Source: Clostridiales bacterium
GTDB lineage: Bacteria; Bacillota; Clostridia; Monoglobales; Monoglobaceae
Direction: 5' to 3'
Assembly: GCA_019419865.1 (NCBI GenBank)
Contig: JAHZIG010000026.1
Coordinates: forward strand, 1 to 39,019
DNA: 39,019 nt
Shown: positions 1 to 33,876 of the stretch, piece after piece
Numbering within the stretch: the stretch's first letter is position 1
How the letters are laid out: each line of letters opens with the position of its first letter
Notes under the pieces: model-generated
Told to the model about the DNA's origin: nothing
The model's database searches: none
Seen by the model: only the letters and a program-made list of their open reading frames with translations
Position numbers and translations under genes: made by a program

Positions 1-53
1 CCTATGACCCTCTGCTTGTAAGGCAGATGCTCTCCCAGCTGAGCTATGCTCCC
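1..53 (-). tRNA. tRNA-Val (anticodon UAC), 5' part, cut by window edge
   Basis: Read on the minus strand from 53 down, the sequence gives an acceptor strand GGGAGCA, a D-arm with AGCTCAGCTGGGAGAGC, and an anticodon stem TCTGC/GCAGA closing the loop CTTACAA. The anticodon UAC lies at 20-18. The variable region GGTC and the start of the T-arm run off the left edge, so the 3' acceptor strand is not visible. Val(UAC) is one of the tRNAs that carry mo5U34 in Firmicutes, which links it functionally to trmR in this window. Confidence 0.93.
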
Positions 54-16411: not shown

Positions 16412-17611
16412 ATGGAATATATAACCGTGCGCGACGCAGCGCAAAAATGGAATATATCGGAGCGGTTGGTGCAGAAATACTGCGCGGCGGGGCGCGTCGA
16501 AGGGGCGAAGAAATTCGGTACTTCCTGGGTGATCCCGGACGGAACGATAAAGCCGAAAGACCCGCGTAAAGCGCAAAGCGCGCCGGATATGCGTCGGGAA
16601 AGGAAGCGGTTCGTTTCTTATCCGGGGCTTATGCCGTTGATGAACGCCGCGTTTGAACCGGGCAAATGCTTGGAATTTATTCACGATATGGCCGACGGTC
16701 CGCAAAAACAGATCGCGCTTGCGGAATACTATTATTTCAGCGGCCAGCCGGAAAAAGCGGCGCGTGAAACAGAAGTTTTTCTTACCGGGGCGGATAGAGA
16801 TATACGGCTTTCCGCCTGTCTGATCTATGCGTATGCAAATCTTTCCGTTGGAAACATACAACGCGCCAGATACGCGCTTACGACGGTGAGCGAAATGCTC
16901 GCTTCCGATTCGGAAAAACATCCGGAAACGCGCGCGGCGCTGTCCTTTATTTCATCGGCCGCGGCGGCGCTTTTGCATCTTCCTTTGCCGGAGGGGCTGC
17001 CGCCCATGCAGGAATTTTTGCCAATGCTTCCGATTGGGCTCAGAATGTTTGCATTATATGTAAAAGCGCATTACATCTATCTGCAAAAGGATTATCAAAA
17101 GAGCCTCGGCATTGTGGAGGCGACGCTCGGTATGCAGACGGAAGAATATCCGATCCCATCTATATATCTGCATTTGGTTGCGGTTATGGATTGTATGAGT
17201 TTAAAACAAGTAGATAAGGCGAAATGGCATCTGCTTTCGGCGTGGGAGCTTGCCAAACCTGACGATCTGATAGAAGGGTTCGGCGAACACCACGGACTTT
17301 TGGGCGGAATGTTGGAGGCGGTCATCAAACCGGAATATCCGGAGGACTTTAAACGGATCATCGCCATCACTTACCGATTTTCCGCCGGGTGGCGCAAGAT
17401 ACATAATCCCGATACCGGACACGACGTAGCGGATAACTTAACGACGACGGAGTTCGCCGTGTCCATGCTGGCCGCTCGAGGCTGGATGAACCAGGAGATC
17501 GGCGCTCATATGAATATCTCGGTCAATACGGTGAAATGGCATATCACAAACGCCATGCAAAAACTCAATATAAACAGCAGGCAAGAATTAAAAAAATACA
17601 TGCTTCTCTAA
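16412..17611 (+). CDS. Transcriptional regulator: N-terminal excisionase/MerR-like HTH plus C-terminal LuxR-type HTH
   Basis: A 399-residue soluble protein. Residues 1-50 (from YITVRDAAQKWNISERLVQKY to WVIPDG) form a winged helix-turn-helix of the excisionase/MerR-like type. Residues about 60-325 are helical with paired-helix, TPR-like spacing. Residues about 338-396 form a GerE/LuxR HTH with the recognition segment AHMNISVNTVKWHITNAMQKL. A DNA-binding domain at each end with a helical sensor or scaffold between is unusual. No receiver or ligand-binding domain is evident. GGGAG precedes the ATG by about 10 bases. The gene ends in its own terminator, 160 bases before the small-protein/giant operon, so that operon is the most likely target. 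Confidence 0.85.
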   Translation: MEYITVRDAAQKWNISERLVQKYCAAGRVEGAKKFGTSWVIPDGTIKPKDPRKAQSAPDMRRERKRFVSYPGLMPLMNAAFEPGKCLEFIHDMADGPQKQIALAEYYYFSGQPEKAARETEVFLTGADRDIRLSACLIYAYANLSVGNIQRARYALTTVSEMLASDSEKHPETRAALSFISSAAAALLHLPLPEGLPPMQEFLPMLPIGLRMFALYVKAHYIYLQKDYQKSLGIVEATLGMQTEEYPIPSIYLHLVAVMDCMSLKQVDKAKWHLLSAWELAKPDDLIEGFGEHHGLLGGMLEAVIKPEYPEDFKRIIAITYRFSAGWRKIHNPDTGHDVADNLTTTEFAVSMLAARGWMNQEIGAHMNISVNTVKWHITNAMQKLNINSRQELKKYMLL

Positions 17612-17619
17612 AGAATAAG

Positions 17620-17647
17620 GATTCGGTTTTCGGCCGGATCTTTTTTT
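17620..17647 (+). terminator. Terminator after the regulator gene
   Basis: GATTCGG (17620-17626) pairs with CCGGATC (17634-17640, one G-T pair) around a 7-base loop, followed directly by seven T residues. It separates the regulator transcript from the downstream surface operon. Confidence 0.85.
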
Positions 17648-17653
17648 ATTACC

Positions 17654-17680
17654 TACCCATTTTTATCCCTCTAACGGGTG
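17654..17680. promoter_or_regulatory. Putative activator site: inverted heptamers TACCCAT / ACGGGTG
   Basis: TACCCAT (17654-17660) fits the NarL-type heptamer TACYYMT exactly. ACGGGTG (17674-17680) is a near-perfect inverted copy, with 13 bases between. The centre lies about 49 bases before the predicted transcript start, a normal place for an activator next to a poor -35. The adjacent gene encodes a LuxR/NarL-type HTH. This is inference from a short motif only. Confidence 0.4.
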
Positions 17681-17700
17681 GTCTCAAAAGAAATATTCAA

Positions 17701-17709
17701 TGTTATAAT
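17701..17709 (+). promoter_or_regulatory. Extended -10 promoter of the surface operon
   Basis: TGT followed by TATAAT (17704-17709) is a good extended -10. The base block 17 upstream (GTCTCA, 17681-17686) is a poor -35, suggesting dependence on an activator. The predicted start is near 17716, about 62 bases before the first gene. Confidence 0.6.
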
Positions 17710-17719
17710 TAAATAAACT

Positions 17720-17741
17720 ATGAATAAATAATGAATAAATT
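17720..17741 (+). repeat. Tandem 11-base direct repeat in the operon leader
   Basis: ATGAATAAATA (17720-17730) is followed immediately by ATGAATAAATT (17731-17741) just after the predicted transcript start. It could be an operator or simple AT-rich slippage. Confidence 0.5.
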
Positions 17742-17777
17742 ATGTTGGAAATCGGAAGTGGAAAGGATGATTTGCGC

Positions 17778-18065
17778 ATGAATAAGATCAAAGAATACAA
17801 TATCGAAGGCGCGACGCTTACGATTCCGCTTCGATATGATGAAAAGTCTGGCATATATATGGAGGAGTATCCAGACTTCGTAAAAGATCCCGTATATACG
17901 CCGGAGGGTAACCCGATCATGCTGACGCTTGAAGACGCCTGCGCTTGGGGCGAGCCGAAAGACGCGGGCGAGCCGCTTATAGACTGCGGTTCGTGCAGAT
18001 TCTACCGGCAGGCGGCGAATACTTTGATCGGGGTGTGCTGGTGCGAAAAAAATAAACAAATATAA
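17778..18065 (+). CDS. Small four-cysteine protein, conserved hypothetical
   Basis: A 95-residue soluble protein starting at ATG 17778, with AAGGA 10 bases upstream. This is preferred over an in-frame ATG at 17742 that has no ribosome site. The N-terminal half is a short beta-rich segment (ATLTIPLRYDEKSGIYMEEY). The C-terminus carries DCGSCRFYRQ and, after about a dozen residues, VCWCEK, a C-x2-C...C-x-C set that could hold zinc or an iron-sulfur cluster. No signal peptide is present, so it should stay in the cytoplasm. It ends 22 bases before the first giant gene and shares its promoter. I have an impression of similar small proteins in gut Clostridia but no name for them. Confidence 0.75.
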   Translation: MNKIKEYNIEGATLTIPLRYDEKSGIYMEEYPDFVKDPVYTPEGNPIMLTLEDACAWGEPKDAGEPLIDCGSCRFYRQAANTLIGVCWCEKNKQI

Positions 18066-18087
18066 ATACACAAGGAGGATAGAGACA

Positions 18088-21000
18088 ATGAAAAGACGTA
18101 TTTTAACTTTCATGCTGTGCGTTTGTATGGCGTTTCAGCTCTCTCCCGCCGTCATTACGGTAGATGCGGCGGGCGGATACGCTCCGAAGCGAAACGACGA
18201 TTTCATCATTCCGGCGGCTCTCAGAAGCAACAGGGATTTTATGATGGGGTCGACTCTCAGAGGTACTCAGGCTAATTTCATCAACAAAATGGGCTTAAAC
18301 GGCAACAGTACGTATAAGGATTTTAGTACGAACAACAGCTTGGAAATAGGCGAGGTATCAAAGGAACTTAGAAGCGCCGGTCAGCTCAGCTATACCTTCG
18401 GCGCAAGAGTAAAAACCAGCAACAGCAGATTGACTGGCGAGATAGAAACATGGTTGTCGCTTAACGGAGTCAGATATTATCCGCAGCACAGTTCGTCGAA
18501 CGCCTTTAAAGACCACGGAATATATGAGAACGCAAACACGACATACAATATGGGATCCGACTCGTTCCGGTTTTGGGCGGCGACGTATAACGCGGAATGG
18601 TATACGAAGGCCACGCAGACAAAGGATCTGGCGATTTATCTGCTGGACGAAAAAGCGCCGACGGTCGAAAGCTGCGAGATCGCGCAAAACGGCGAGAAGA
18701 CGTCGGTCGTACAGCTCGGCTCCACCGTTCGGTTCACGCTCAACTTCTCGGAATATATCAGGTTTGCCGACGATTCGGACTCTCATGAGCCGGGGCTTCA
18801 GTTTGAGATTTTACCTTACGGCGAGATCGTAAGCGATCCGATCCGGCTGAAAGCGGATTTTGTCGAGCTGTATGATAATAAAATGGTGTTTGAATACACG
18901 TTTTTAGATGAATACAGCGGCTATGAGGGCATAAAGGAATTTTATATCTCAAGGATAGAAAGGATAACGCAGCAGGAAGACTTCGACGCGGAATACGACC
19001 TTGCTCTACTTCCTCAAGAGATAGCCGACGCGGCGAACACGCCGGATATAACAGTCAACAACCTTGTCACCGATCTTGCGGGAAACGCCGCGGAAGAAGT
19101 TTTGGCGACGGATGAAAACGGCGCTGTGACCGGCGAGCGGGAAATCGTCTTTAACGCCGTCAAGATCGATTCCAAAGCGCCGTCCGCGCAAAGCGTCGGC
19201 ATAGAAAAAAAGCTGACGTCTTGGCGGACCGTTGCGGAGGAGGACGCCGGTCTGTATGCAAAAGTAGGCGACAAAGTGCAACTGAGCGTTTCTTTTGACG
19301 AGCCTGTTTATGCGGACGCGGGAAGCGCGACGCTGACCCTTAACGTTAAGGATAGTACGGGCCGGCCCGTCGCGGTAAAAAACGATACGGATATCTCGGG
19401 CGGGACCGTCATGACCTTTGAAGAAGTCGAGATAACGGAGGGCATGACGTATACCGACGGCGCCGCCGCGGATGGAAAGATAACGCCCGTTTCCATCGAC
19501 GCGTCCTCGGTTTTGGACTCTGCGGGAAACGCGTGCGGAGTACATGATCTAAAAGATCAAGGAATATTTGCCAACCGGGATTTTGCGCTGGATACGCTGG
19601 GACCCGCGATCGATCTCAGCGATCCGATAACGACGTTTGACGACGACGCCGTTTTCTGCGCGCCGTTTAATATAGCGGACGACGACGGCGACGGGACCGT
19701 GTCCGTCAGCGGCGTTGATACGATGCGCGGATATTTCTATCTGACCGGTTTTCCGAGTCGCTACTCTTATGTGAGCGGCGGCGATGAAGCATATTATGAA
19801 AAACAATACTTTTCGTATTACATATCCAATACCGTTATGACCGAAGCCGAGTTGGAAGGCAGATGGATACCGGCGGCCGAGAGCTTCCGAACAGATTTGC
19901 CGGATAGCGGCGCGTACTATTTCGATCTATACAGCGGCGGCGAAACTTACATATATATAAAGATAGGCGATATTGAAATTACAGATCCTACCATACACGT
20001 GATGGCGGAGGACGTCGCCGGGAACCGCAACGTCGTATCGGAACAGATAGGTTATACCCTCGATATGACAAATCCGAGCTTCGGAAACGCAAGCCGCGTG
20101 ACCGCCTCTCCAAGTCAAAACACGCCGAACGCATACGATCTCTCGTGCAGCATAACGCTCGAGGATGAGAACGGTATCAACTTCGACGCGTTCAGGGCGT
20201 CGGCGGACAACGGCCTGTTCACCGACGCGGGGCTCGGCTCGCATCAGTATGTCGATATCATAAACGCTCCGGGTGAAGACGGCAAGACGAACACGATCAC
20301 GTTTGTTATGAAAGCCGTACCCGCGGGTGAGATACCGAATTATAACGTTACGTTCACAGCCGAGGATAACTCCGGTAACGAGAGCCAAGTAACGTTCCCG
20401 TTTACGTATAATCTCTCGAGTTTTCATATACTGGAACGCACGACGACTTGGGATGATGAAAACGGATATTCGTCGTATTTTATTTTTCACAGGCTCAATG
20501 CGCAATTCACGCCGAACGCGCAAACGATCCTGATGATAAAGGATCCGTATTCGAGCGACGAGGGCTATGCCGTGACTATAGTAGACCAATACTATATCTC
20601 GGACGATAATTTCAATATACTTACCGATGAGAACGCGCAGTGGTCGTATTATACAAGAAGCGCGAATTCCGATCCGCAAAAGCAGATCTTGCTTACGCCC
20701 GCCGGGGGCAGCGCTGATTTCATCCAGGATCTGACTGCGTACGACGCGTATTTCGGAGACGTTTCGTACGTATTGATCTCCGGAGACGGTCTGGCGATAG
20801 AGGATTTTACAAACGGCGATCCGTTATCCGTGCCGATTTCCATAACCGAGGAAACGATTCGGTTAACGGGATCTTCGGATTACATAAATAACGTGTCGCT
20901 TGCGCCCGGGTTCGATTACGAGCCCGTAGACTGGGAGCTGGATCCGACCGGCGGCGTCTGGCAAGCGCCCGCGTACGGCGAGGAGGGATTGACGACGTAC

Positions 21001-24000
21001 AATACGAGCCTTGCCGGTAAATCGATCCGCGTAAGACTCTCTCTTCCGGAAATAAACGGCCTTGAGTGGTCCGATTATGAAAGCGTCGTATTAAAGCTGG
21101 GGTACGCGTCGGACGATATAGCTAATAACGATAATCCTATCTTTGAGACGCAGCTGTCGCTTACGGAGGAAGAACAATACATAGTTCTCCCCGAAAGCCT
21201 GAATGAAGATTTCTTTACAGAAAGGACGAATCTCGAATTCTATATCCAGACGTTTGTGAAATGGGATACGGCATACAGTTACGGATTCTATACGACGAGC
21301 GGCGAGGTATTTTCCTGCTATAACAGCGCGCAGCAAGACGAGGCGTATTTACAGAAACTTACTAAGAACACATATATAGACGTTCCAAATAATAACGGCG
21401 AGACGGAACGGGTATCCGTTTTACACGAACAGGAATTCGGCTCCGCGCAGGAGACGGCTCAGGATCTTGGCGTGGCGAAAGCGATAGATATCGCGCTATC
21501 GGACATGACGGCTATCACTCTTGATTTTGCCGGTCTTGGTTACGAGCAGAGGATCCGTATCTGGAACGAGGCCAACGGCGAAACAAAAGACGGCGCGGAA
21601 TGGATGATGGGTGTAACTAACTTTGAGAGACATCTTATCGCCGACGCGGTAAATACCGTATATTATCAGACGGTCGATCCATACGGCGGACTTAGCGATA
21701 TCCATACGCTTATCTTCGATACCAGGCAGGAGGCGCCGAAGATATCCGTTGACTTCACGCCGAGCGCGGACGACGGATACGCGCGGGAGCGCAGATTAGT
21801 CCTCGGCGAACTCAGCGGCGGCGCCGGCGAGGAGCTTACCGTTAAGATGATAGATCCCGAAGGGAATATCTCCGATTTCCCGCAGGGCGACGACGCGATC
21901 GTGCGCGATGAAGAATACAGAGTCTTCTATACGGTAAACAGCGCCGGAGCTATCGGATATACAGCCGTAAAAGCCGAGAAGATAGACGTCGATAACCCGG
22001 TTGTAAACATTGACAACCAAAGCGGCTCTTATCTTGGTATATCCGTTACGGACGACGTATACGATGAAGACGTATCGGAGATGGAGCTGTATATCAGATA
22101 CGACGATCCGGCATACAGAGCCATCCTGGAAGAATACGGGCTTTTGACCGATGAAGACGGGTTCTTCAGGGTCGATGAGTTTTCAGAGTCGGCGTTCAGC
22201 GCGCGTCCGGAAAATACCGCTATGGGCATATTGGAATATACAGGATCTTTCAGGCCCTTGGATAATCAGATTAACGCCGGAATGACGTTTACGGCGCCTG
22301 CGGGGAGCGGCGGATATACGGGGACGATCTCCATGTACGCAGTAGATCGCGTCGGACGGCAGTCGGATGTCGTTACGACTGACGCGGTTAACATTCCGGA
22401 GATCAAATTTACGGAGAATGAATTTGGTTATAACCGAGATAATTATCCGTTTGGCGCCGAGGGAAACATCACTTTCCCGTCGTATTCAGTTTTGCTGGAG
22501 AATCCGGCTGAAGTTACTGAGCCGAGACTAACCGATAGAGGCGTCAGAGGCGAGATCGATACGGAAAATACGTTCGGGAACTTATATCAAGCGATGCCTA
22601 TCTACAAAGACGGCGAATATACACTTACGGTAAAAGATCATTTCGGCGACGAACACGAAGTCGCATATACCGTTCCGCCGGAGGCTTTCGACGGCGACAG
22701 GCTCGACGTATACGCGGTTAACGCAAAGGACGGAGATACTGATATCGTCAATTTAAGTATCAGATCCCTTGACAACAGCCGATTCAAAGTGGAATTGCCC
22801 GAGGACGACGACTATAGTTACGAGGCGATGCAGGGAGCGACCATAGATCCTTCAATGAAAGCGGGCGAAGCGACCGTATGGCAGAGCGACGGCGCCGAGG
22901 GCGGTTTCGGCGAATTTTATACGGAAGTAACGCTCAGAGTGACAAAAAACGGGACGTTCAAGGTTTTGGTCGAAAACAACGAGGGAACGCTCACCGAATA
23001 TTTGGTAAACGTTTATATCAACCGGGAGATCGCCGAGCTTGAAACAACGTGGAGTTTCCCGAACGGACGATTTACAGACGAAAACGGCGATATTTACACC
23101 TACGACTACGCGACGTTTGTGGTAGATACGGTAGACCCCGAAAGGTCGCTGATAGGAGAAAACGAGTTCAACTTCACATACAACGACGCCGTGGGAACGA
23201 CCAAAACGTTTACGATCACAGACGATTACGGTTTCGTACAGGAGATCACGGCGGAGCTTGATTTTGAGATACGCAGATCCGAACAGGGATACCTCGATCC
23301 TCCGGATATGGAGGTATCGCTCTACGCGAATCGGAACGGCGCGTTTCAGCTGCTTGGAAGCGTCGGCGAAAACGGGCGGTATAAAGAACTGATCGATATG
23401 TACGGCGGCGCGACGCAGTATAGTATCACAACGTCGACGATCTCGCCGAACAACGTAAAGACGGCGCTGCTACCTTACGGCGCAAATACGTCCGGCATTA
23501 CGTACGATACGGCGCAGAACGCTACGATCGACGGAGTTGAAGTAGACGGCGATATCATCAGGATAAACGAGACGGACGCCAGGTTCTCGATCGTCATGGT
23601 CGATGAAAACGATCTCTTAAGCGAAAGATTCGACTTTGACGGCGGCTTTACAATAGACGATACTCCGCCGGCGATCGGCGATGTGAAGAAAACCGTAAAA
23701 GGCTACAGCGTAGAGCTTGAGATAACCGTGACCGACGACGTCAGCGGCTTTGACGAACTGACCGTCCTAAGCCCGGCCGGCGTTACAAGAGGGGATAACG
23801 TATTCCTATACACCGTCGGTCAGAACGGAAACGTCGTATTCATAGTAAGCGACGAGTGCGGCAACTATGCGACGCAGGCGATCTCCATAGCGGAGATCGA
23901 CGATACGCAGCCGACGGCGAGACTTGTAGCGTACTCCCCGTCGTCCGATACCTCTCAAACCGTATTGCCGACGATTTCAAACAGGGATATTGAAGCGTTT

Positions 24001-25314
24001 ATCACATTTAATAAGAATATAAGGGAGCTTAGCCTTGAGATCCTCAAAGACGGCGCGTATACGGCCGCGACGGACGAAGACGGAGTGAGTATATCGAAAA
24101 ATACCGAAAGTTCGGCCACCGTAACTTTCACAAAGGGCGCGTCCGTAAGAGTTCAGTATAAAGCTCTCAACGGTCAAAGCGGAACGCCGCTTGAGATCAA
24201 TGTTCCGGACGGCGTTATAGATAAGAGCGCTCCGAACATCGTAACTGAAGTTATATACAATAGACGCGACGGAGCGAGCAGACCGATAAGCGCGACGATC
24301 AGAGCTTACGCCGATAATAAGACGATATTCTACGGCGCCGGCGCGTATACGGCGGAAGATCCGTTCGAGGAGATCGTATATGAGAATAACGTTTACGAGT
24401 ATTCCTTTACGGACGGCGCGGGGAATGTCGCGGAAGTAAATATCGATGTCAACGAGATCGACGAAAAGAGGCTGGAGGTCTATGCGTTCGATATACCCGA
24501 GCAGATAACGGCGACGGGAGCGGAATTTAAGCTTTCGGTGAATAAGCCCGCGACGGTCGTTTTGCACGACGGGCTTACGACGAGCGACAGCCTTGTAGTA
24601 ACGGAGCCGGACGGCGGCGTTCTTACGCTGACGGCGCAGAGCGCGGGATTCTACGCGATAACGGCGACGGACGAGGCTGGGAGCAAAGCGAACTGTTATG
24701 TTTCGATAGCGGTCGGCGATTCCATGCCGCCTACGATCATGGCGGATTCGTATTACGTATACGTACGCCAGGGCGAGAACATCGCAAGCGTTGACGATAG
24801 CAGACTTACAAGCGGTCTGTTTGTAAGCGACGATAGATCCGACGCGGAAAACATCGCGCTTACGGTCGACAGGTCGGGCTTACCGGCGGATCTGAGTATT
24901 GTAGGCGACTACGCTTATACTGTAACGGCGACCGACGAAGCCGGGAATACGACCGATATAAGACGCTATCTAAGCGTTTACTCACAGAGCGCCACGGTTG
25001 TGGAAATAGACGGTGTCTTTACTAAAAACACGGGCGTTGCGACTACGACGAGGGGCGAACATACGATTGGCGTAAACCTGCCGAGCGGCTCCGTTTTAGG
25101 AGCGGCATTCGAGCCGTATCAGGTATTCTGCGCAAAGGGATATTATACGGAGGGGCAGATGAAACCGTGGATGACGCCTTTGACGGCCGCGGGTATAACA
25201 AGCGGCATAAACGACGAATACAGATACGACTTCGAGCAGGAGGGCTGGTATACGATCTATGTAGCGCGTCAGAATAAAGAAGTATTCTTAGCTCATCTGC
25301 TGATCCAGGAATAA
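18088..25314 (+). CDS. Giant secreted Ig-like repeat protein without wall anchor (2408 aa)
   Basis: AGGAGG precedes the ATG. The signal peptide covers about residues 1-27 (basic start, hydrophobic core, VDA before the cleavage site). Residues about 30-185 form an unrecognised domain. From about 187 onward, divergent bacterial Ig-like modules repeat, each opened by an acidic-x-x-x-P hinge: DEKAPTV (about 187), DSKAPSA (360), DTLGPAI (507), DMTNPSF (662), DDTPPAI (1855), DKSAPNI (2050), MPPTIMA (2212). The last (about 2210-2305, ending TVTATDEAGNTTDI) matches DUF5011/HYR-type Ig-like domains. DDDGDG near 530 looks calcium-binding. The whole is strongly acidic. There is no SLH, LPxTG, choline-binding or C-terminal transmembrane segment, so it is either released or held by a partner, most simply the SLH giant encoded 31 bases downstream. 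Role unknown; adhesin or surface-layer component is inferred. Confidence 0.88.
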   Translation: MKRRILTFMLCVCMAFQLSPAVITVDAAGGYAPKRNDDFIIPAALRSNRDFMMGSTLRGTQANFINKMGLNGNSTYKDFSTNNSLEIGEVSKELRSAGQLSYTFGARVKTSNSRLTGEIETWLSLNGVRYYPQHSSSNAFKDHGIYENANTTYNMGSDSFRFWAATYNAEWYTKATQTKDLAIYLLDEKAPTVESCEIAQNGEKTSVVQLGSTVRFTLNFSEYIRFADDSDSHEPGLQFEILPYGEIVSDPIRLKADFVELYDNKMVFEYTFLDEYSGYEGIKEFYISRIERITQQEDFDAEYDLALLPQEIADAANTPDITVNNLVTDLAGNAAEEVLATDENGAVTGEREIVFNAVKIDSKAPSAQSVGIEKKLTSWRTVAEEDAGLYAKVGDKVQLSVSFDEPVYADAGSATLTLNVKDSTGRPVAVKNDTDISGGTVMTFEEVEITEGMTYTDGAAADGKITPVSIDASSVLDSAGNACGVHDLKDQGIFANRDFALDTLGPAIDLSDPITTFDDDAVFCAPFNIADDDGDGTVSVSGVDTMRGYFYLTGFPSRYSYVSGGDEAYYEKQYFSYYISNTVMTEAELEGRWIPAAESFRTDLPDSGAYYFDLYSGGETYIYIKIGDIEITDPTIHVMAEDVAGNRNVVSEQIGYTLDMTNPSFGNASRVTASPSQNTPNAYDLSCSITLEDENGINFDAFRASADNGLFTDAGLGSHQYVDIINAPGEDGKTNTITFVMKAVPAGEIPNYNVTFTAEDNSGNESQVTFPFTYNLSSFHILERTTTWDDENGYSSYFIFHRLNAQFTPNAQTILMIKDPYSSDEGYAVTIVDQYYISDDNFNILTDENAQWSYYTRSANSDPQKQILLTPAGGSADFIQDLTAYDAYFGDVSYVLISGDGLAIEDFTNGDPLSVPISITEETIRLTGSSDYINNVSLAPGFDYEPVDWELDPTGGVWQAPAYGEEGLTTYNTSLAGKSIRVRLSLPEINGLEWSDYESVVLKLGYASDDIANNDNPIFETQLSLTEEEQYIVLPESLNEDFFTERTNLEFYIQTFVKWDTAYSYGFYTTSGEVFSCYNSAQQDEAYLQKLTKNTYIDVPNNNGETERVSVLHEQEFGSAQETAQDLGVAKAIDIALSDMTAITLDFAGLGYEQRIRIWNEANGETKDGAEWMMGVTNFERHLIADAVNTVYYQTVDPYGGLSDIHTLIFDTRQEAPKISVDFTPSADDGYARERRLVLGELSGGAGEELTVKMIDPEGNISDFPQGDDAIVRDEEYRVFYTVNSAGAIGYTAVKAEKIDVDNPVVNIDNQSGSYLGISVTDDVYDEDVSEMELYIRYDDPAYRAILEEYGLLTDEDGFFRVDEFSESAFSARPENTAMGILEYTGSFRPLDNQINAGMTFTAPAGSGGYTGTISMYAVDRVGRQSDVVTTDAVNIPEIKFTENEFGYNRDNYPFGAEGNITFPSYSVLLENPAEVTEPRLTDRGVRGEIDTENTFGNLYQAMPIYKDGEYTLTVKDHFGDEHEVAYTVPPEAFDGDRLDVYAVNAKDGDTDIVNLSIRSLDNSRFKVELPEDDDYSYEAMQGATIDPSMKAGEATVWQSDGAEGGFGEFYTEVTLRVTKNGTFKVLVENNEGTLTEYLVNVYINREIAELETTWSFPNGRFTDENGDIYTYDYATFVVDTVDPERSLIGENEFNFTYNDAVGTTKTFTITDDYGFVQEITAELDFEIRRSEQGYLDPPDMEVSLYANRNGAFQLLGSVGENGRYKELIDMYGGATQYSITTSTISPNNVKTALLPYGANTSGITYDTAQNATIDGVEVDGDIIRINETDARFSIVMVDENDLLSERFDFDGGFTIDDTPPAIGDVKKTVKGYSVELEITVTDDVSGFDELTVLSPAGVTRGDNVFLYTVGQNGNVVFIVSDECGNYATQAISIAEIDDTQPTARLVAYSPSSDTSQTVLPTISNRDIEAFITFNKNIRELSLEILKDGAYTAATDEDGVSISKNTESSATVTFTKGASVRVQYKALNGQSGTPLEINVPDGVIDKSAPNIVTEVIYNRRDGASRPISATIRAYADNKTIFYGAGAYTAEDPFEEIVYENNVYEYSFTDGAGNVAEVNIDVNEIDEKRLEVYAFDIPEQITATGAEFKLSVNKPATVVLHDGLTTSDSLVVTEPDGGVLTLTAQSAGFYAITATDEAGSKANCYVSIAVGDSMPPTIMADSYYVYVRQGENIASVDDSRLTSGLFVSDDRSDAENIALTVDRSGLPADLSIVGDYAYTVTATDEAGNTTDIRRYLSVYSQSATVVEIDGVFTKNTGVATTTRGEHTIGVNLPSGSVLGAAFEPYQVFCAKGYYTEGQMKPWMTPLTAAGITSGINDEYRYDFEQEGWYTIYVARQNKEVFLAHLLIQE

Positions 25315-25345
25315 AAAAAGATCCATACAGAGAGGAGGAGTAAAA

Positions 25346-28300
25346 ATGAAGAAATGCATGTCGCTTATATTATGCTTGAGCCTGTTCGTAGGCCTGATAG
25401 CTCCACTGACCGCGTATGCGGACGGGGAGAGCGAATACAGCTTGATAAACGAAAATATCGAAGTCTACGTATCTGCGGAAAACGGCGGTTTTGCTATCAA
25501 AACTGCCGAAGGAGACACGCTCAAAAAATCGGATAATAATAAAGATCTATTGTATCATGGCGGAGAATACGATACGTCTTTCACTTCTTTTGAAGTAGAG
25601 CGCGACGGAGAGAAGAGGGAGTATATCTTCGGCGGAAGCTATGGATTTTTGGGGCTTAGCAGTTCGGACGTGACGGTGACTCAGCTCGCCGACAGTATAG
25701 AAGCGGTTTGGAGCGTGGACGGCATAGAATTTACGCAGATGATAGAGATACCGAATACGGCGAGTAATCAGCACGGTATGGTAACTATATCGTATAGAGC
25801 CGAAGTAAAATCGGGAAGCCCCGCGAAAATAAGGTCGAGGATCTTGTTTGATACCTCGCTCGGTAATCAGGATTACGCGTATTATAACGCGAACGATAAC
25901 CTCGGTTACGCCGTAACATATGAACGCGAGACGGAGCTTCTGGGTAGCGATTATTCTTCAGGCTTCATTCCGGAGAGTATTTATGCGTCGGATAACGACG
26001 GGCTTTCGGGCGTCGCGGCATATTCTATCAACACGACGGCGTATAAAGCGGTTTTCGCGCACTGGAACAACCTTGCGTCTACGGTGTTTGAGTACGCTCC
26101 GAATCCCGCGATGACGTTTACTAACCCAAATAATATCGAGTATCAGACGGCGGACAGCGCCTATGCTATCTACAACGATCTGGGCGAGATAGGATTAAAC
26201 GCAAGCGCCAGCGTGAGCTGTTACTACGGCGTCTATTCAAACTACAACGTCGGCGCGTCGGAGAGCGTGGCGCTGAATGTTATCGCGCCTAATTCGCTTG
26301 AACTCTCGGCCGATAAGCAGAGTTATATCCCGGCGAGCGGCGCTTTGGGTAACGCGACGTTCCCGGTAAATATCAATATGACCAACTTTTCGTCAAACGA
26401 TCTGTCCAGGATCGCGATCGCCGCGTACACGACGAACGGGATAACTCCGCTCGATATGAACGGAAACGAATTGGAGTTTGAGCCGAATAGTATGAACCCG
26501 TATTACGTTACCTATGAAGGGTTGAGGTCCGGCGACGTCCTCGATTACATATTCCAATTCAGAGCGTCAGTTGGAGAAAACGCGACGTACAGAAGGGTCG
26601 AACTTAGAGTTTATGATATTTCCGACGGAACGACGACATTATCGAGCGGAAATATGATAGGGAGCAGAAGCTTTAATATATTGTGTCCCGGCGGAGACGG
26701 TAACCTGCCTCGGGTAACGTTCACGGGAGCGGATCCTGAGATCTTATATAACAAAGGCGGAAACAGGTATATCGTTACAGGAACAAATTTCTCCATGCTG
26801 ACGGATCCCGCGCATTATTCTATAACGCTCGAGTCGGACGACGGATCAAACGGCTATACCGTGGATCCAAACGATATCGTGATCGACGCGGAGCTTGGAA
26901 CGATGACGCTGATCCTGCCGGAAGAATATGTGCCGGGCGCGTATCACGTATATATAAACTGGAGGCAGTCGGCGTACGATAGCGGGATCGTCGATTCAAA
27001 CACGCCTTCGTCTTACACCTCCGAAGCGCTCCGACTTATCTTTTCCGAAGATCCGAAATACAAGAACAACGTTTACGGAGTCGTCGCGGTCGTGCAGGAT
27101 AAATCGCCAGCTCCGAATCAGGTATATACGATCTTGAGCTTTAAAGACGAGGCCGAGTTTAATACGTACAAACAGACGGATGAAAATTACAGCGAGATCC
27201 TTTTAGAAGTCAGAGGAGAATTTGAGGCCGTAACGGACGGACACGGCAACATGGTGCATCTTACGGGAACTTCGCAGTCGGGTTCAAACGACGTATATAC
27301 GATCAACCAGTGCCTTGATTTTCAGGACGGGATCATAGAGATCTATTATGAAAACGACGATATCGACGCGGCGAACAGAAAGATAAACGTTGATTTTGAC
27401 GGCAGTTTGTATACGTCGGGAGAGCGAACTCATATAGCGTCCGTTCCGGCGGCGCTGACGAGTATCGAAAACGGACGGGAATACGGCCTTTTGGAATATA
27501 ACCTGAACGGAGAGAGGAAAAACGACGCGAACGTATGCTATATCTCTCTGGTATGGGGACATACCGGACTGGAGCTTGCGCAGCAGATAGCGGGTTCGGT
27601 ATTCCAGCTCGGATTCGGTATACTCGGCGTGATAGAGGACGATAACGGCGGCGCCGTCGGCAAAACCGTTTCGTTTACAGCGTCGTTCGACATAGGCTTT
27701 TTGATCCCGAACGGGCAAAAATATAGAAACAGCGGACTGGATTATGACGATCCGATCGATCGCATTTTAACGGCGTTTGATTTTAACGATTACTATCATC
27801 CGCGGGATCTGCGACAGCGGGCGAACGTCCTCTTTGGATGGAATAACGATTTCACGGACGAGGATAGGTATGTGCAGTCTCAGCAGGCCGCGACGATGAA
27901 TATCATTGTGAGGGACGTTCTGTTCGCTTATATCCCCGCGCAAAGCGAAGGGGAAGAAGATCTGTGCGGATTCTACGGTTTCCGCGGCGGCGCGGATATT
28001 ATACTTCCGTCTTATACGACGGCTATGCCGCAAATAAAGGCGCGGCTTGAAGTGAACACGATAAGAAATTACAGCTTTTCGGTCGAAGGCGGGTTGAGAT
28101 TTGCAAACCTTGATTTTGGCGCTTCGCTCGAGGTCCTGAGCGTGGACAACGAGATACCGGTTCCGAACAAATTGTTCGTCTATTGCAATCTTCCGGCGGG
28201 GGCGCTGGGATTTTTCCTGGATCCTGCGGGCGCCGTCGTTATAACGGGCGGAGGCGGCGGTTTTGATAACCTGTATGAAACCATTATGGTGCGGGATAAG

Positions 28301-31300
28301 CTTCCGACATTACAGCTTATGCTCCGGCTCTATATCAAGGTGATCCAGGTGATGTCGTGCCAGGCGGACGGAATGTTCAGCCTGCAAGGGGTAAGCCTCT
28401 CTATGTCGAACCTTAGGCTTGACTCCGTACCGAACTCGCCGCCCGTTATCCCATATGCGGGGCTTAAACTTCAGTGGCTGCCGACATGGTATTTTCACGT
28501 CGCTATCAACATAGACTTGTTCCAGATCTTGAGCGGCGGAGGATATATCGTAGTCGATCAGAAAGAAGACGACGACGTATTCTTTGAGGCGTTCGCAACC
28601 GTCATGGTGCGGATCCCCGACTATGTGGGACTTGTCGGAGGAATCGAAGTCGCCGGCGCCACGGTCGGGTTAAACACCGATAAAGTGTGGGGGTCCGTCA
28701 GAGTCATAGGGATAGGACTCGGCATCGTATACTATTGGGGCGATGAAGACAGCTTCGATTTCGGCATAGGCGTAGGCGAAACGCAGCCGACGTATCCGGA
28801 ATTACTCCCGGCGCTTCAGGGGCTCGAGCCCGTACTTTTGGGATACGACGAAAAAGCGGGCAAGAACGTATACATGAAGATCGGTACTAATATTAGTCCC
28901 GGAGCGCAGGCTCAGATCGTTTCGGATCTGAATACTACGCCCGTCCTTTTAGGCGAATCGTCCGTTCAGTCGCTTGACACAAGAACGCAGCACAGAGTGA
29001 CTATAGGCGGAAATTCGGACGAGATCATGACTCTCGTCTATCCGGCGCAGAGTCTCGAGCACGCGCGGGAACTGTACTCGCAGATGAGCGGCCTTCCGAC
29101 GAATATCAAGATGTATCCAGACGCGGATGCAAACGCGAATCTCACATTCAACGAGGGAACGGCGACGCTGGCCGTTACGTCGAGCAAGGGTACAAGCGCG
29201 ACATACGATATAACGACGCCCGTCGCGACCGATATCACGATCTTGAGCGTCGCGCCTATACCGGAAGTAAGCGGTATTTCTGCGTCGAGCGCAGAGGATA
29301 AGATCGATATATCTTACGATGGCGAAAACTTAAACGAGCTTGATAAGATAAGCTTCTATCTGGCAAAAGAGCAGACGGTGAGCGAAAACAGCACGGACGG
29401 CGATATGCTCTTAGGCGTATATACGGATCCCTCGGATATTTCTTCCGGATCGGCGTCGTTCGATATACCTAAAGGACTGCAAAGCGGCGACTATTATGTG
29501 AGAGCCGTATATTCGCAGGAAAACGTCGTGAGCGATTATATCGCTACGGACAACAAACTTTCATATGTAAATCCGGATCAGCCTCAGGCGGCCGACATAG
29601 TATCCTATGAAAACGCGGGAGATCATTACTTGGCGGCGGTTCTCGGCGATATTCCCGACAATATATCGGGATATGTTGTAAACGTATATAACGAGGACGG
29701 AAGCCTGACGGATTTTGCGGGAGTGGAGATCCCAAGGGATAGCATAGAGGATAATAAACTGATCGTAGGCGGAAGATTCGACACGCCGGTTTACGATGAA
29801 GAAGGGAACGTAGTCGAAGGCGAGACCGCAGAGGTGGGCTTAGAGCCCGGTCAAAGATACAGGATCGGGATAATCCCGTACTATGAAACGACCGAGGACG
29901 CAGGTTCATACCGAGTGATGGGAGAAGAGGTAATTGGCTCCGCCGTTACGCTCAGCGCTCCTACGCCGGCGGAGATATCCGTGTCATCCGATAAGGAAGG
30001 AACGCTTTTTGCGGACGGGAATGTAACGTTTACAGTCTCGTCGAATGAAAAGCTTACGGGCGTCTGGAGCATAGCGAACGGATACGAAGAAGGCAGGGAA
30101 GGTTATTACGGCGAATTTACGGACGCCGATACAATAACGATACCGCTTGCTAATCTTCCGGACAACGATTATGTGCTTGAAATATGGGGAAGCGATGAAA
30201 CGAACGATTCGTTCTCGCACAACCATAAGTTTACGGTCGATACGACCGAGCCGCGCCTGATTTTAAGCTCGCCGATAAACGGTTCCGTATTCGGCGAAGA
30301 CGGAAAGCTTACCGTGACCGGCATTACGGATCTTGACGCGTATATCACGGTCGAGATAGACGGAACGGTCACGGCGGATAACGTACCGTTCAGCCAATTC
30401 AATGCGGATATGGATGCGAACGGCTGTTTCAGCTTCGATTTGATGATCGATCAGAGCGTTTCGACCCATGATATAAAAATAACGTCCAAGGACGAGGCGG
30501 GAAACGCTTCGATTCATGAGGCGAAGGTAAACCATGCGGGCCTTAGCAAAGTGGAGCGCGTCGACGTTTATTATAACGGAGTTCTTTATTCAAATAAGAA
30601 CATAAGCGTTTTAGACGATACGAACGAGGGTCAACTGAGCCTGGTGGCGCAGACTCCTACGGGAAGATTTACGATCGACGACGATATCGTCGATTGGTCT
30701 GTGAATCCTGTAACAGGAAGCGCTGCGGTTGACGAAACCGGAAAGATAACGTTTGATAGGCAAAGCGAAGGTTACGTAGTGGGACGGTTTAATGTTACAA
30801 GCGTAGCGCCGATGACGGCGAGCGCGACGTTCGGAGCGCCCGAAAGCGCGTCCGGCAACGTTGTGGTAGTAGGTTCTACCGTCGGCGGAACCGTAACCGG
30901 CGGAGGCGAATACGCGCCGGGCGATACGGTCGTATTGACCGCGCAAGCCGAAAGCGGATATCGATTCTCGCATTGGGAACTCGACGGCGCGACTGTGGAA
31001 GATACTTCAAGCGCAGTGATCGAATTTACCATGCCTGATTCGATCGTATATGCGACGGCGCGCTTTGAGACGATCAACAGCGGTCGTCCGAGCGGCGGCT
31101 TTGCGGGCGGTTTTGCAGGCGGATTCGGCGAAGAAGATCCGGCGATCGAACCGGAAGACGTTATAGCGACGATCGACGCGGACGAAGGCGAACTTGTTGA
31201 ATATAATCTGACGCAGCCTATAGAAAACGAAGATAATATTGTCGCGCAATACAGTACGGACAATGGAGAAACATACATAACGGTCGCAAAGTCCGCGGTA

Positions 31301-31921
31301 GTGGACGGCGCGTTCAAGTTCATTGCTCCCGTCGCCGCGCAGTACAGGATCGTGAGCGTCGATGGGATCGACTTCAGCGATGTTACGGAGTCGAACTGGG
31401 CGTACGATTATGTGGATTTCGCATCGATAAGAGAGATCGTAAACGGCGTGGGAGATAATATGTTTGAACCCGACGGAAATCTTACAAGGGCGATGTTTGT
31501 AACGATGCTCGGCAGGATGCACGGCGATCTGGGTTCTTATGATAAACATGCTTTCGCCGACGTTGAAGCGGGTTCATGGTATGAGGAATACGTATCATGG
31601 GCGTCCCACAACGGCATTGTCGAAGGTTACGACGCTGAGAGCTTCGCGCCGGACGATAATATCACTCGCGAACAAATTTGTACGATGATAGACCGTTATA
31701 TGAAGTATGAAGGTTATAATATAGAGATCGAGCCTGCGGATAAATTCACGGACGACGCGTTGATAAGCGATTGGGCGTACGATTCTGTAGAAGCGGTTAA
31801 AAACCTTGAAATAGTGATCGGATACGAGGACGGAAGTTTCAGACCGCAAGGATTAGCGACGCGCGCGGAGGCCGCGACAATGTTTACGAGATTGATATAC
31901 GCATTGCTCGCGAACAGGTAA
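25346..31921 (+). CDS. Giant SLH-anchored surface protein (2191 aa)
   Basis: AGGAGG precedes the ATG. The signal peptide is about 1-25 (ends AYA). Residues about 28-320 form an unrecognised beta-rich domain. About 450-560 is TIG/IPT-like (ITGTNF-type loop VTGTNFSML). About 740-1150 is a long run of alternating hydrophobic strands with GGGGGF and GIGLGIVYYWG segments. About 1330-1640 holds fibronectin/Ig-like modules, and 1690-1790 an Ig-like module with DEAGNAS. About 1845-1905 is a divergent InlB B-repeat (GGEYAPGD...GYRFSHWELDG), followed by a GGF-repeat linker. Three SLH domains end the protein (about 2008-2062, 2068-2127, 2131-2188) with TRA/TRE/TRAE motifs that bind pyruvylated wall polysaccharide. 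It is the wall-attached member of the operon. Domain boundaries are by eye. Confidence 0.9.
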   Translation: MKKCMSLILCLSLFVGLIAPLTAYADGESEYSLINENIEVYVSAENGGFAIKTAEGDTLKKSDNNKDLLYHGGEYDTSFTSFEVERDGEKREYIFGGSYGFLGLSSSDVTVTQLADSIEAVWSVDGIEFTQMIEIPNTASNQHGMVTISYRAEVKSGSPAKIRSRILFDTSLGNQDYAYYNANDNLGYAVTYERETELLGSDYSSGFIPESIYASDNDGLSGVAAYSINTTAYKAVFAHWNNLASTVFEYAPNPAMTFTNPNNIEYQTADSAYAIYNDLGEIGLNASASVSCYYGVYSNYNVGASESVALNVIAPNSLELSADKQSYIPASGALGNATFPVNINMTNFSSNDLSRIAIAAYTTNGITPLDMNGNELEFEPNSMNPYYVTYEGLRSGDVLDYIFQFRASVGENATYRRVELRVYDISDGTTTLSSGNMIGSRSFNILCPGGDGNLPRVTFTGADPEILYNKGGNRYIVTGTNFSMLTDPAHYSITLESDDGSNGYTVDPNDIVIDAELGTMTLILPEEYVPGAYHVYINWRQSAYDSGIVDSNTPSSYTSEALRLIFSEDPKYKNNVYGVVAVVQDKSPAPNQVYTILSFKDEAEFNTYKQTDENYSEILLEVRGEFEAVTDGHGNMVHLTGTSQSGSNDVYTINQCLDFQDGIIEIYYENDDIDAANRKINVDFDGSLYTSGERTHIASVPAALTSIENGREYGLLEYNLNGERKNDANVCYISLVWGHTGLELAQQIAGSVFQLGFGILGVIEDDNGGAVGKTVSFTASFDIGFLIPNGQKYRNSGLDYDDPIDRILTAFDFNDYYHPRDLRQRANVLFGWNNDFTDEDRYVQSQQAATMNIIVRDVLFAYIPAQSEGEEDLCGFYGFRGGADIILPSYTTAMPQIKARLEVNTIRNYSFSVEGGLRFANLDFGASLEVLSVDNEIPVPNKLFVYCNLPAGALGFFLDPAGAVVITGGGGGFDNLYETIMVRDKLPTLQLMLRLYIKVIQVMSCQADGMFSLQGVSLSMSNLRLDSVPNSPPVIPYAGLKLQWLPTWYFHVAINIDLFQILSGGGYIVVDQKEDDDVFFEAFATVMVRIPDYVGLVGGIEVAGATVGLNTDKVWGSVRVIGIGLGIVYYWGDEDSFDFGIGVGETQPTYPELLPALQGLEPVLLGYDEKAGKNVYMKIGTNISPGAQAQIVSDLNTTPVLLGESSVQSLDTRTQHRVTIGGNSDEIMTLVYPAQSLEHARELYSQMSGLPTNIKMYPDADANANLTFNEGTATLAVTSSKGTSATYDITTPVATDITILSVAPIPEVSGISASSAEDKIDISYDGENLNELDKISFYLAKEQTVSENSTDGDMLLGVYTDPSDISSGSASFDIPKGLQSGDYYVRAVYSQENVVSDYIATDNKLSYVNPDQPQAADIVSYENAGDHYLAAVLGDIPDNISGYVVNVYNEDGSLTDFAGVEIPRDSIEDNKLIVGGRFDTPVYDEEGNVVEGETAEVGLEPGQRYRIGIIPYYETTEDAGSYRVMGEEVIGSAVTLSAPTPAEISVSSDKEGTLFADGNVTFTVSSNEKLTGVWSIANGYEEGREGYYGEFTDADTITIPLANLPDNDYVLEIWGSDETNDSFSHNHKFTVDTTEPRLILSSPINGSVFGEDGKLTVTGITDLDAYITVEIDGTVTADNVPFSQFNADMDANGCFSFDLMIDQSVSTHDIKITSKDEAGNASIHEAKVNHAGLSKVERVDVYYNGVLYSNKNISVLDDTNEGQLSLVAQTPTGRFTIDDDIVDWSVNPVTGSAAVDETGKITFDRQSEGYVVGRFNVTSVAPMTASATFGAPESASGNVVVVGSTVGGTVTGGGEYAPGDTVVLTAQAESGYRFSHWELDGATVEDTSSAVIEFTMPDSIVYATARFETINSGRPSGGFAGGFAGGFGEEDPAIEPEDVIATIDADEGELVEYNLTQPIENEDNIVAQYSTDNGETYITVAKSAVVDGAFKFIAPVAAQYRIVSVDGIDFSDVTESNWAYDYVDFASIREIVNGVGDNMFEPDGNLTRAMFVTMLGRMHGDLGSYDKHAFADVEAGSWYEEYVSWASHNGIVEGYDAESFAPDDNITREQICTMIDRYMKYEGYNIEIEPADKFTDDALISDWAYDSVEAVKNLEIVIGYEDGSFRPQGLATRAEAATMFTRLIYALLANR

Positions 31922-31925
31922 AGAC

Positions 31926-33338
31926 ATGAAAAGAATTATAATAATCATATCGTTGATATTTGTTTTATTTACGGAGACGGCGCACGCCGCCTCCGTAAGG
32001 ATCGGAGTGATCGACACGGGTGTGAAAGAAAAGGAAGGTATTATCGACGGTGAAAAAATACTCGACGGCAAAAACTATGTTTTGGGCGGCGGCGACACCG
32101 ACGATGAGGTCGGACATGGAACGAGAGTGGCAAGCCTTATTATAGGCACAGCCGACGGAGAAATAGTTTCGCCGTGCAGCGAAAGCGCGATCGTTCCGCT
32201 TGTATATTATACAAAGCTCGCTTCGGGCGCCGTACTGAACGGAGGGATCGAATCGATCTGCAACGCGATATACGACGCCGTGGATATATACGATTGCCAA
32301 ATTATCAATATCAGCAGCGGAATAACGGCGGACGACGAGCGCTTGAAAAAAGCTGTGGATCATGCCGAGGAACAAGGCGTATTGATCGTGTCGGCCTGCG
32401 GCAACAGCGGCGGAGAGACGTACTATCCCGCCGCGTACGATACGGTTATCGGCGTGGGGAGCCATAACGATGAATTTGAGCCGGCGGACTTCTCTTGCCA
32501 AGGGAGCGGACTCGATATGCTTACGTACGGCGAAGATCTGAAAGTGGTCTCGATAAAAAACGCCGCCGATTATGAAACGATAAGCGGGACCTCGTATTCG
32601 ACGGCTTTGATCTCCGCTCACGCGGCCGCGGCGCTTGAACAATATCCGCATCTTACGCCGTCTCAGATAAGATATCTTATGAGGACCAGCTGCGACGATA
32701 TATGCGACGCCGGATATGATGAAAAAAGCGGATACGGCGTTTTTTCTCCCGACCGATTTTACGAGAATCTCAGGCTTTTCGATCATGGTGAAATAATTTG
32801 CTTTTATGACGTCGAAGAAAGCGACTGGTATTATGAAAGCGTGAGAGAGGCGTATCGTCAAGGGTGGATGAACGGTACTGGCGACGGGATATTCGACCCG
32901 GACGGCAACATGACGCGCGCGATGTTTGTGACCATACTCTACAGAGCCGAAGGCGAACCGCAGATTAACAATGTATTGAAATTTGACGATGTGGACGAAA
33001 ACGCGTATTATGCCGAGGCCGTCGGCTGGGCGTCGGATAACGGGATAATTGCGGGTTATTCCGATACGGAGTTTGCTCCGGAGAGAAATATCGCCCGCGA
33101 GGAAATGGCGGCGGTCATGAACCGATACGCGGATTATAAGGGCATGAACGCAGACGACCAAGGCGACCTGACGGTATTTGCCGATGCGAACGTTGTTTCA
33201 GACTGGGCGAGAGAAAATATTAGCTGGGCGGTTGGAACCGGATTAATTACCGGCAAAGGCGACGGTATACTCGATCCTTTGGGGAACGCTACCCGAGCCG
33301 AGACCGCGGAGATCATGCATAGATTTTTAGAAAAATAA
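31926..33338 (+). CDS. SLH-anchored subtilisin-like serine protease (S8)
   Basis: A 470-residue secreted protease. The signal peptide is about 1-22. The catalytic triad is Asp30 (VIDTG), His64 (GHGTRVAS) and Ser223 (GTSYSTA), with oxyanion Asn160 (ACGNSGG). The catalytic domain ends near 275 and three SLH domains follow (about 292-345, 350-408, 413-468). The catalytic core starts within a few residues of the signal cleavage site, so the usual I9-type propeptide that folds and restrains subtilisins is missing. ATG lies 4 bases after the stop of the SLH giant with no strong ribosome site of its own, indicating translational coupling. A role in maturing or shedding the two giants is inferred from position and shared anchoring. 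Confidence 0.93.
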   Translation: MKRIIIIISLIFVLFTETAHAASVRIGVIDTGVKEKEGIIDGEKILDGKNYVLGGGDTDDEVGHGTRVASLIIGTADGEIVSPCSESAIVPLVYYTKLASGAVLNGGIESICNAIYDAVDIYDCQIINISSGITADDERLKKAVDHAEEQGVLIVSACGNSGGETYYPAAYDTVIGVGSHNDEFEPADFSCQGSGLDMLTYGEDLKVVSIKNAADYETISGTSYSTALISAHAAAALEQYPHLTPSQIRYLMRTSCDDICDAGYDEKSGYGVFSPDRFYENLRLFDHGEIICFYDVEESDWYYESVREAYRQGWMNGTGDGIFDPDGNMTRAMFVTILYRAEGEPQINNVLKFDDVDENAYYAEAVGWASDNGIIAGYSDTEFAPERNIAREEMAAVMNRYADYKGMNADDQGDLTVFADANVVSDWARENISWAVGTGLITGKGDGILDPLGNATRAETAEIMHRFLEK

Positions 33339-33379
33339 AATAATATGTTTTCCTAAAGGAAAGCTGGTATGTACGGCGG

Positions 33380-33420
33380 CCGCTCGGCGAATGGGTTATT
33401 CTTTTCGTTGAGCGGTTTTT
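33380..33420 (+). terminator. Terminator of the surface operon
   Basis: A 12-bp stem (33380-33391 with 33404-33415, two G-T pairs) closes a 12-base loop and is followed by five T residues, 41 bases after the protease stop. Confidence 0.85.
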
Positions 33421-33876
33421 GCGTTTTGATCGACGAAACTTTCTTTCGCGCGCCGCTCTCATAATAGATCGATTCAAAGACCGACATGACGGGCGGAATA
33501 TATTGAAAAATACTCGATATCGTTGATATTATTTAGCGAACGAGTCTTGCATATCGCCATAAAGCGCGTTATAATAGATTTATGGTATATTAAGGCTCTT
33601 TCCGTCTTGGAAATGAGCGTTGTGAATACCGAAAAAAAGACGGGATAGCAAAAATAGAATTTTGCAAACAGGCGGTAAATCTTTCTGTTATGGTTGAGAC
33701 GGTACGGCTTTTCGCATAGATGTTTACCATGCAATTTACTGCTTTTGAAAGCGAATATAAGAAAATTTGAGGAGTTATAAAAGTATTTTTTAAGCCGCAA
33801 AATGCTGTAAAGCATTATAAATAAGAATTTAGAGATATTTGTGAAATTATAAAAAATTTGAGTTGAGGAGATAAAA
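33421..33876 (+). other. Gene-free interval with a strong promoter and a long leader
   Basis: No convincing gene lies in these 456 bases on either strand. TTGCAT (33547-33552) and TATAAT (33570-33575) with a 17-base spacer form a good promoter about 300 bases before the P1 peptidase gene. The predicted leader contains CCGTCTT/AAGACGG (33602-33608 with 33637-33643), GGTAAA/TTTACC (33674-33679 with 33723-33728) and a short AATGCT-GTAA-AGCATT hairpin (33801-33816). I do not recognise a riboswitch class. It could be a structured leader or a separate small RNA. Confidence 0.45.
33547..33575 (+). promoter_or_regulatory. Promoter upstream of the P1 peptidase gene
   Basis: TTGCAT and TATAAT are separated by exactly 17 bases. 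The predicted start near 33582 leaves about 295 untranslated bases before the ATG at 33877. No better promoter is visible closer to the gene. Confidence 0.65.

Follow-up and report, generated by a model that had tools for sequence, protein, structure and literature searches.

What does a bacterium build from two secreted proteins of more than 2000 residues that are encoded side by side, when only one of them carries a wall anchor? The question is raised by a 39,019-nt stretch of a Clostridiales genome (JAHZIG010000026.1, the whole of it called the window here), in which the gene for a giant protein with immunoglobulin (Ig)-like repeats and no anchor (the free giant) is followed by the gene for a second giant ending in three S-layer homology (SLH) domains (the anchored giant). 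A preliminary description placed both in one operon with a small four-cysteine protein, taken for a regulator, and an SLH-bearing subtilisin, and pictured the anchored giant as a wall-bound platform for the free giant, with the protease trimming or releasing them. On balance, the locus probably makes a two-subunit surface structure in which the SLH-held giant would carry the anchorless one. Judged by gene order across genomes, the conserved unit is the two giants and not a trio with the protease. The idea of a platform with a free partner fits this far-reaching genetic unit, the binding of one giant to the other being something we infer; the trio and the regulatory role of the small protein did not stand. 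Genomes, loci and proteins are labelled G, L and P.

The nearest loci are found in Clostridia assemblies, among them that of Candidatus Ornithomonoglobus merdipullorum (L007). L002, L003, L004 and L007 all retain the order regulator, small protein, free giant, anchored giant, subtilisin, with best-alignment identities of 85-89% for a LuxR-type regulator, 74-75% for the small protein, 70-79% for the free giant, 80-89% for the anchored giant (in two pieces in L003) and 81-85% for the subtilisin. A contig end cuts off the upstream part of the block in L001, L005 and L006, and none of the downstream open reading frames (ORFs) inspected in near relatives matches the window's downstream genes. When the anchored giant, stripped of its SLH part, was searched against 70 genomes from the G007 family, 18 of them matched at 1e-5, four via an InlB-like repeat only. 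Wherever sequence exists in these family contexts, a big gene, whether whole, cut by a contig end or split, lies directly upstream and is matched by the free-giant profile.

Beyond the family, the side-by-side arrangement and the gene order recur across many Clostridia and in some further Bacillota. Of 40 loci checked by one procedure, 37 (the window included) have the free giant immediately upstream and on the same strand, with gaps of -16 to +68 bases that rest on mechanical ORF starts; the remaining three loci start 1-134 bases from a contig end. The 40 omit L093, L094, L096, L097, L099 and L100, which are weak or partial matches with no free giant, as well as the contig-cut G094, G082 and G086, and G022, G025 and G038 are close kin and not independent loci. 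In a class sample of 391 genomes, the core of the anchored giant matches at 1e-10 in 34 genomes, and a reciprocal search with the C-terminal alignment of the free giant matches at 1e-15 in 34. The combined table, with one row per place, uses 37 of 46 core rows and 37 of 45 free-giant rows (left out were 9 core and 7 free-giant rows from contigs that had been counted before, and a weak free-giant row from a further contig, G253:C20). In 26 rows, from 24 genomes, the core reaches at least 246 bits. The free giant lies upstream, on the same strand, in 22 of these rows, and the other four are contig-cut (G225, G094, G082, G086). All 20 free-giant rows of at least 233 bits stand upstream of a core, as do two weaker rows, and the 15 at or below 184 bits sit on contigs that have no core and are interpreted as cross-matching between Ig-like repeats. 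A phylum sample gave matches at 1e-20 in 100 of 398 genomes, nearly all at the N-terminal domain only; the pair is present with all five of its new longer cores (G457, G771, G810, G660, G516). Every strong core with upstream sequence at hand has the free-giant gene as its neighbour, with order and direction unchanged. The trio and its order, searched for in this way, hold for the giants, which stay together, but not for the protease, which is mostly absent; it is the protease, and not either giant, whose homologues mostly occur apart.

The two genes also share their history. Trees of the core and of the free-giant C-terminus, compared for 28 of the 37 pairs, gave a distance correlation of 0.87, with none of 2000 permutations as high. 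The omitted pairs are L007, whose junction is lost, and L050, L021, L134, L135 and L129, L130, L131 and L132, which were partial or fetched later; some tree rows are ORF pieces. Most groups are common to both trees, with differing placements for L089, L049, L092 and the order inside the window clade. In G021 and G053, which have two pairs each, the paralogue pairs fall in different clades and are matched between the trees. The giants are inherited together, and no partner exchange was seen.

The anchored giant (238 kDa) and the subtilisin had each been credited with three SLH stretches, and matches to PF00395 bear this out (E 4.6e-35 and 4.8e-31). Both proteins have signal-like N-termini by eye and so combine the sequence features of SLH-anchored surface proteins; the SLH domains are the predicted wall anchor of the giant. 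Its conservation is fairly even, peaking at the N-terminal domain and again at the SLH part. The 1300-residue core of the window protein has no Pfam match above cut-off, the core profile found no useful match among PDB sequences (best E 0.19), and the giant gave no plasmid match. The C-terminal module varies. It is mostly SLH, but a type I dockerin is found in G771 and LRR_5 (BspA-type leucine-rich repeats) in G356, and some of the at least 115 homologues have, by precomputed domains, PF07833, PF13306 or PF00404 and no SLH. Sources of these homologues include Lutispora sp., Sedimentibacter acidaminivorans, an Oscillospiraceae and a Paenibacillaceae bacterium. The pair persists through changes of its anchoring module, which leads to a testable prediction, namely that one giant holds the other.

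Two other arrangements were considered. A separate anchor gene seemed to be present in G211 (L082:11231-17764), where a 1443-aa core ORF is followed by a 685-aa SLH ORF; this was dropped, as the two sum to about the usual length of the anchored giant and are perhaps one broken gene. Fission of one ancestral protein has no sign in the 40 loci, none of which has a fused form, but may still have occurred, since the homologue search is blind to proteins longer than 1.75 times the query. The N-terminal domain of the anchored giant (about 300 aa) has a wider distribution of its own: roughly a quarter of the 398 phylum-sample genomes have it in proteins whose length is mostly about 640-760 aa (L106-L128). 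Two of these proteins were scanned (L106, L117) and have DUF11-like and cohesin-like parts after it; the domain itself is covered by no Pfam family in the proteins scanned.

The free giant (265 kDa, isoelectric point 4.1) is, as first described, of a secreted type without an anchor: its N-terminus looks signal-like by eye, and a domain scan found nothing that would anchor it. Its conservation climbs toward the C-terminus, and the window protein ends in a GWYT motif (residue 2386 to the end). A terminal x-[WFY]-x-T motif, at most about 30 residues from the end, is found in 36 of 36 listed free giants, with G as first letter in 33; the list omits L007, whose free-giant C-terminus is lost. Every listed free giant stops just after the motif and thus leaves no room for an anchor. 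A homologue search returned 15 proteins, one of them from Paenibacillus chartarius (23% identity, E 9.7e-15).

These features suggest that the paired giants are a two-part surface structure of an undescribed kind, and no description of such a pair was found, by title or abstract opening, among the papers listed in searches of the openly licensed PMC literature. The best-supported mechanism would have the anchored giant carry the free one. The anchored giant would be held at the wall by its C-terminal SLH domains, and the free giant would dock on it, probably via the conserved C-terminal Ig-like domains. The complex may then stand out from the wall as a scaffold or adhesin.

A simpler account, which we judge a good deal less probable though worth serious attention, is that each giant acts on its own at the surface, say as an adhesin or a coat protein, and that the two are co-expressed without binding each other. 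An operon by itself would explain the co-expression, and a sequence scan found no terminator-like and no promoter-like site at the junction of the giants (25.2-25.5 kb). Relatives display many other SLH proteins, the free giants diverge faster (16-23% identity to the window in distant rows, against 22-41% for the anchored giants), and distant core relatives lacking a free giant exist. Independence is harder to square with the absence of an anchor from the free giant, implied by the like terminal motif throughout the list, and with adjacency and order that persist while regulators, proteases and C-terminal modules change.

Several observations weigh against a carrier and its cargo more generally. 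Linked genes share a history anyway, so the agreement of the trees shows that partners were not swapped, and not that they bind. Matches to SLH number from 73 to at least 150 per genome in G001-G007, where SLH display is a main surface strategy of the group; with SLH proteins so numerous in seven genomes, SLH anchoring alone is nothing special. Most of each giant is made up of domains that are Ig-like or unassigned, and domains of this sort spread readily; the regulators upstream of the pair vary by lineage. None of the 11 core rows at or below 208 bits is beside a free giant. Most of these are fragments. Five cover about the first 330-400 positions, G123 and G216 lie within 114-607 with a later piece, and four match only after 838. 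G123 is nevertheless a true distant core relative standing without a free giant, and G321 encodes a 1522-aa SLH protein that matches positions 6-1267 at 130 bits, has an unrelated gene upstream and has no partner. These two slightly lowered our confidence in the two-subunit reading. The locus L007:3261-14776 has a free giant without its C-terminal part and an anchored giant without its first 592 residues, which is either a deletion spanning the junction or a misassembly.

A bolder possibility concerns the middle of the anchored giant, where residues 737-1166 are modelled as a barrel-like, 20-strand antiparallel meander with a helical insert. The model weakly resembles outer-membrane barrels, the best Foldseek match being the PapC usher (TMq 0.30, root-mean-square deviation 10.1). 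In Bacillota lacking an outer membrane, a wall-held barrel-like protein might hold, thread or load a giant exoprotein or a hydrophobic cargo, as a monoderm counterpart in layout of two-partner and usher systems; the pair would then be ancient, swapping its anchoring module and gaining differing proteases and regulators by lineage. We regard this as speculative and improbable. The outer-membrane markers BamA and LpxC were each found in none of 16 pair-carrier genomes, the window's own genome not being among the 16, while both are present in 2 of 2 tested relatives that have only the short protein with the N-terminal domain. A role at an outer membrane in the carriers was rejected on this absence of matches, though many of the assemblies may be incomplete. 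No Pfam match to an Omp85 partner was found in the window proteins, and none in 16 of 16 carriers.

Slightly less probable again is a dedicated trio, in which trimming or release of the giants by the SLH protease, like that of SlpA by Cwp84, is the defining activity. The enzyme is, as first described, an S8 subtilisin with three SLH domains (Peptidase_S8, E 1e-33), and its VIDTG/IIDTG, GHGT and GTSYS motifs, which we take to be the Asp, His and Ser catalytic motifs, are preserved in each of the 8 copies aligned. Unrelated proteases also adjoin the pair elsewhere: C11 (clostripain-like) enzymes are encoded directly upstream in G021 and G771 and trypsin-like ones upstream in G266 and G810 (L040:2586-4535; L130:2745-4403; L131:5640-6437; L092:13084-13821), which could be repeated recruitment. 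None of the remaining loci was matched by these protease queries. The subtilisin as a conserved third member is contradicted by its distribution, and the trio as a unit was rejected: it follows the pair in only 10 of the 28 loci where 900 bases or more can be seen downstream, all in one clade (the window, G001-G004, the first locus of G005, G006, G007, the first pair of G053, and G057), and the second pair of G053 lacks it. For this count 33 of the 40 loci were examined, five of which were too short; G038, G039, G118, G105, G266, G353 and G421 were excluded, the end of the anchored gene being unused or outside the locus. The subtilisin is better read as a clade-specific accessory, which may mature or shed one giant. 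Its catalytic domain starts straight after the signal-like stretch, with no recognisable propeptide, and its score against a type VII mycosin model is below cut-off.

A role for the pair in harvesting carbohydrates, as a scaffold on the lines of an anchoring scaffoldin with its scaffoldin, is very improbable. The dockerin end in G771, PF00404 in P0073 and P0078 and a GH53 gene near one pair (L045) point that way, but in the window giants the domain scan matched no cohesin, no carbohydrate-binding module and no glycosidase, and a dockerin occurs in only 2 of the at least 115 homologues.

Features of the block and its upstream region in the window (positions in nt; res, residues of the protein concerned).
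Feature	Position	Strand	Remarks
LuxR-type regulator	16412-17611	+	399 aa; C-terminal GerE, E 2e-14; weak N-terminal HTH_17-like stretch
Rho-independent terminator, regulator/block boundary	17617-17643	+	12 pairs and T tract; fold z -2.3
Operator-like site ACCTACCC-N17-GGGTGGT	17651-17682	+	immediately 5' of the -10; aligns in five rows
Extended -10 element TGTTATAAT	17701-17709	+	alignment of five rows
Small gene, ORF as called	17742-18065	+	first of the four-gene block
Small acidic protein	17778-18065	+	95 aa from conserved start
Free giant	18088-25314	+	2408 aa
Most conserved part of free giant	23620-25311	+	res 1845-2408; alignment and conservation profile
Anchored giant	25346-31921	+	2191 aa
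N-terminal domain, anchored giant	25427-26380	+	res 28-345; most widespread part
Central domain, anchored giant	27554-28843	+	res 737-1166; structure model and fold searches
InlB B-repeat-like domain (Flg_new_2), anchored giant	30863-31075	+	E 2.3e-18
Three SLH domains, anchored giant	31358-31900	+	PF00395; bounds approximate
Secreted S8 subtilisin-like protease with three SLH domains	31926-33338	+	470 aa; accessory, one clade
Terminator hairpin at block end	33378-33420	+	33365-33435 folds at -28.1 kcal/mol, z -3.4

The layout of the block itself was largely borne out: the ORF list and translations give four genes on one strand with intergenic gaps of 22, 31 and 4 bases, and terminators flank them on both sides, although the 3' hairpin is, unlike in the fold analysis, unlisted in a consensus terminator scan. 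What had to be corrected is the regulator label and the detail of the promoter. A two-hexamer scan of the + strand at 17654-17709 found no promoter in the region proposed, but an extended -10 element is present there, reading TATAAT in four and TATGAT in one of five aligned rows (the window and four relatives). The conserved block begins one gene further 5' than first read, with the LuxR-type gene, whose orthologues occupy the same place in L002, L003, L004 and L007.

This LuxR-type gene is the likelier regulator of the block. Its product would switch the candidate promoter region at 17651-17709, in which the operator-like pattern matches once in the window and not at all in 100 shuffles. The site occurs once per genome in five of the eight genomes scanned (G002, G003, G004, G007, G053) and has no match in the other three (G001, G022, G025); the reversed pattern, used as a control, gave one match across the eight. 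In G053 it lies, by coordinates (28177-28208), between the regulator and the free giant. The regulator upstream of the pair is of the LuxR type in the window clade, in G053, G022, G025 and G356 (all four by hidden Markov model matches), in G404 and G457, and by profile in G387. Elsewhere it is a histidine kinase with a response regulator (G322), an OmpR type (G211), a histidine kinase/response-regulator type with a receiver match below cut-off (G071), or a TetR-like protein, again with matches below cut-off (second pair of G021, and G098).

The small protein was considered as a DNA-binding regulator and dropped: searched against Pfam and NCBIfam up to E 0.1 it matched no family, and so no DNA-binding domain, and the LuxR-type neighbour is the better candidate. 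Its start is most likely at 17778 and not at 17742, because the Met there is conserved in aligned relatives. Four conserved cysteines are indeed present (P0001 C67, C82, C85 and C99, spaced C-x14-C-x2-C-x13-C), within a total of five. All 70 homologues found are named hypothetical protein at most, and G318 has the family in three copies, one of them adjoining the giants. At the edge of the window (1-53, - strand), Rfam reports a partial tRNA where ARAGORN gave none.

A conserved pair this large (about 240 and 265 kDa), whose core matches strongly in 24 of 391 class-sample genomes, must be costly to make. If confirmed, the structure would put a name to a surface feature of gut and other Bacillota, and the barrel-like domain, if likewise confirmed, would be a structural puzzle in bacteria that lack an outer membrane.

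Known systems offer partial likenesses. Cwp84 of Clostridioides difficile is papain-like. It is described in PMC4089489 as a cysteine protease with a lectin-like domain. The SlpA/Cwp84 system resembles the present one in that secreted, wall-anchored surface proteins of Clostridia can have a surface protease nearby, but the window has two separate genes of more than 2000 aa each, and its protease is a clade-specific S8 enzyme and not a cysteine protease. In the cellulosome, an SLH-bound anchoring scaffoldin holds a second, unanchored large scaffoldin. The likeness lies in an SLH-bound partner plus an unanchored large protein; the window giants differ in having no cohesin or dockerin, a dockerin being found on the anchored partner in G771. 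Two-partner and chaperone-usher secretion in Gram-negative bacteria pairs a giant exoprotein with a barrel-bearing partner in a two-gene layout. The layout is shared, and the best, if weak, Foldseek match is to an usher, but carriers show no outer-membrane markers, and gene order and anchoring differ. The OmpM-type porins of diderm Firmicutes carry an SLH part. Their barrel domain is described in PMC10628300. The anchored giant, as modelled, would likewise join SLH and a barrel-like domain in one protein, with the differences that the domain is mid-chain and that the 16 pair carriers examined show neither BamA nor LpxC. Finally, in two-subunit S-layers (SlaA/SlaB, and the low and high molecular weight subunits of SlpA) one subunit attaches and the other does not, according to PMC12175726. 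Known here from their genes alone and likened by description, the two giants would share with these S-layers the arrangement of an anchored and an unanchored subunit.

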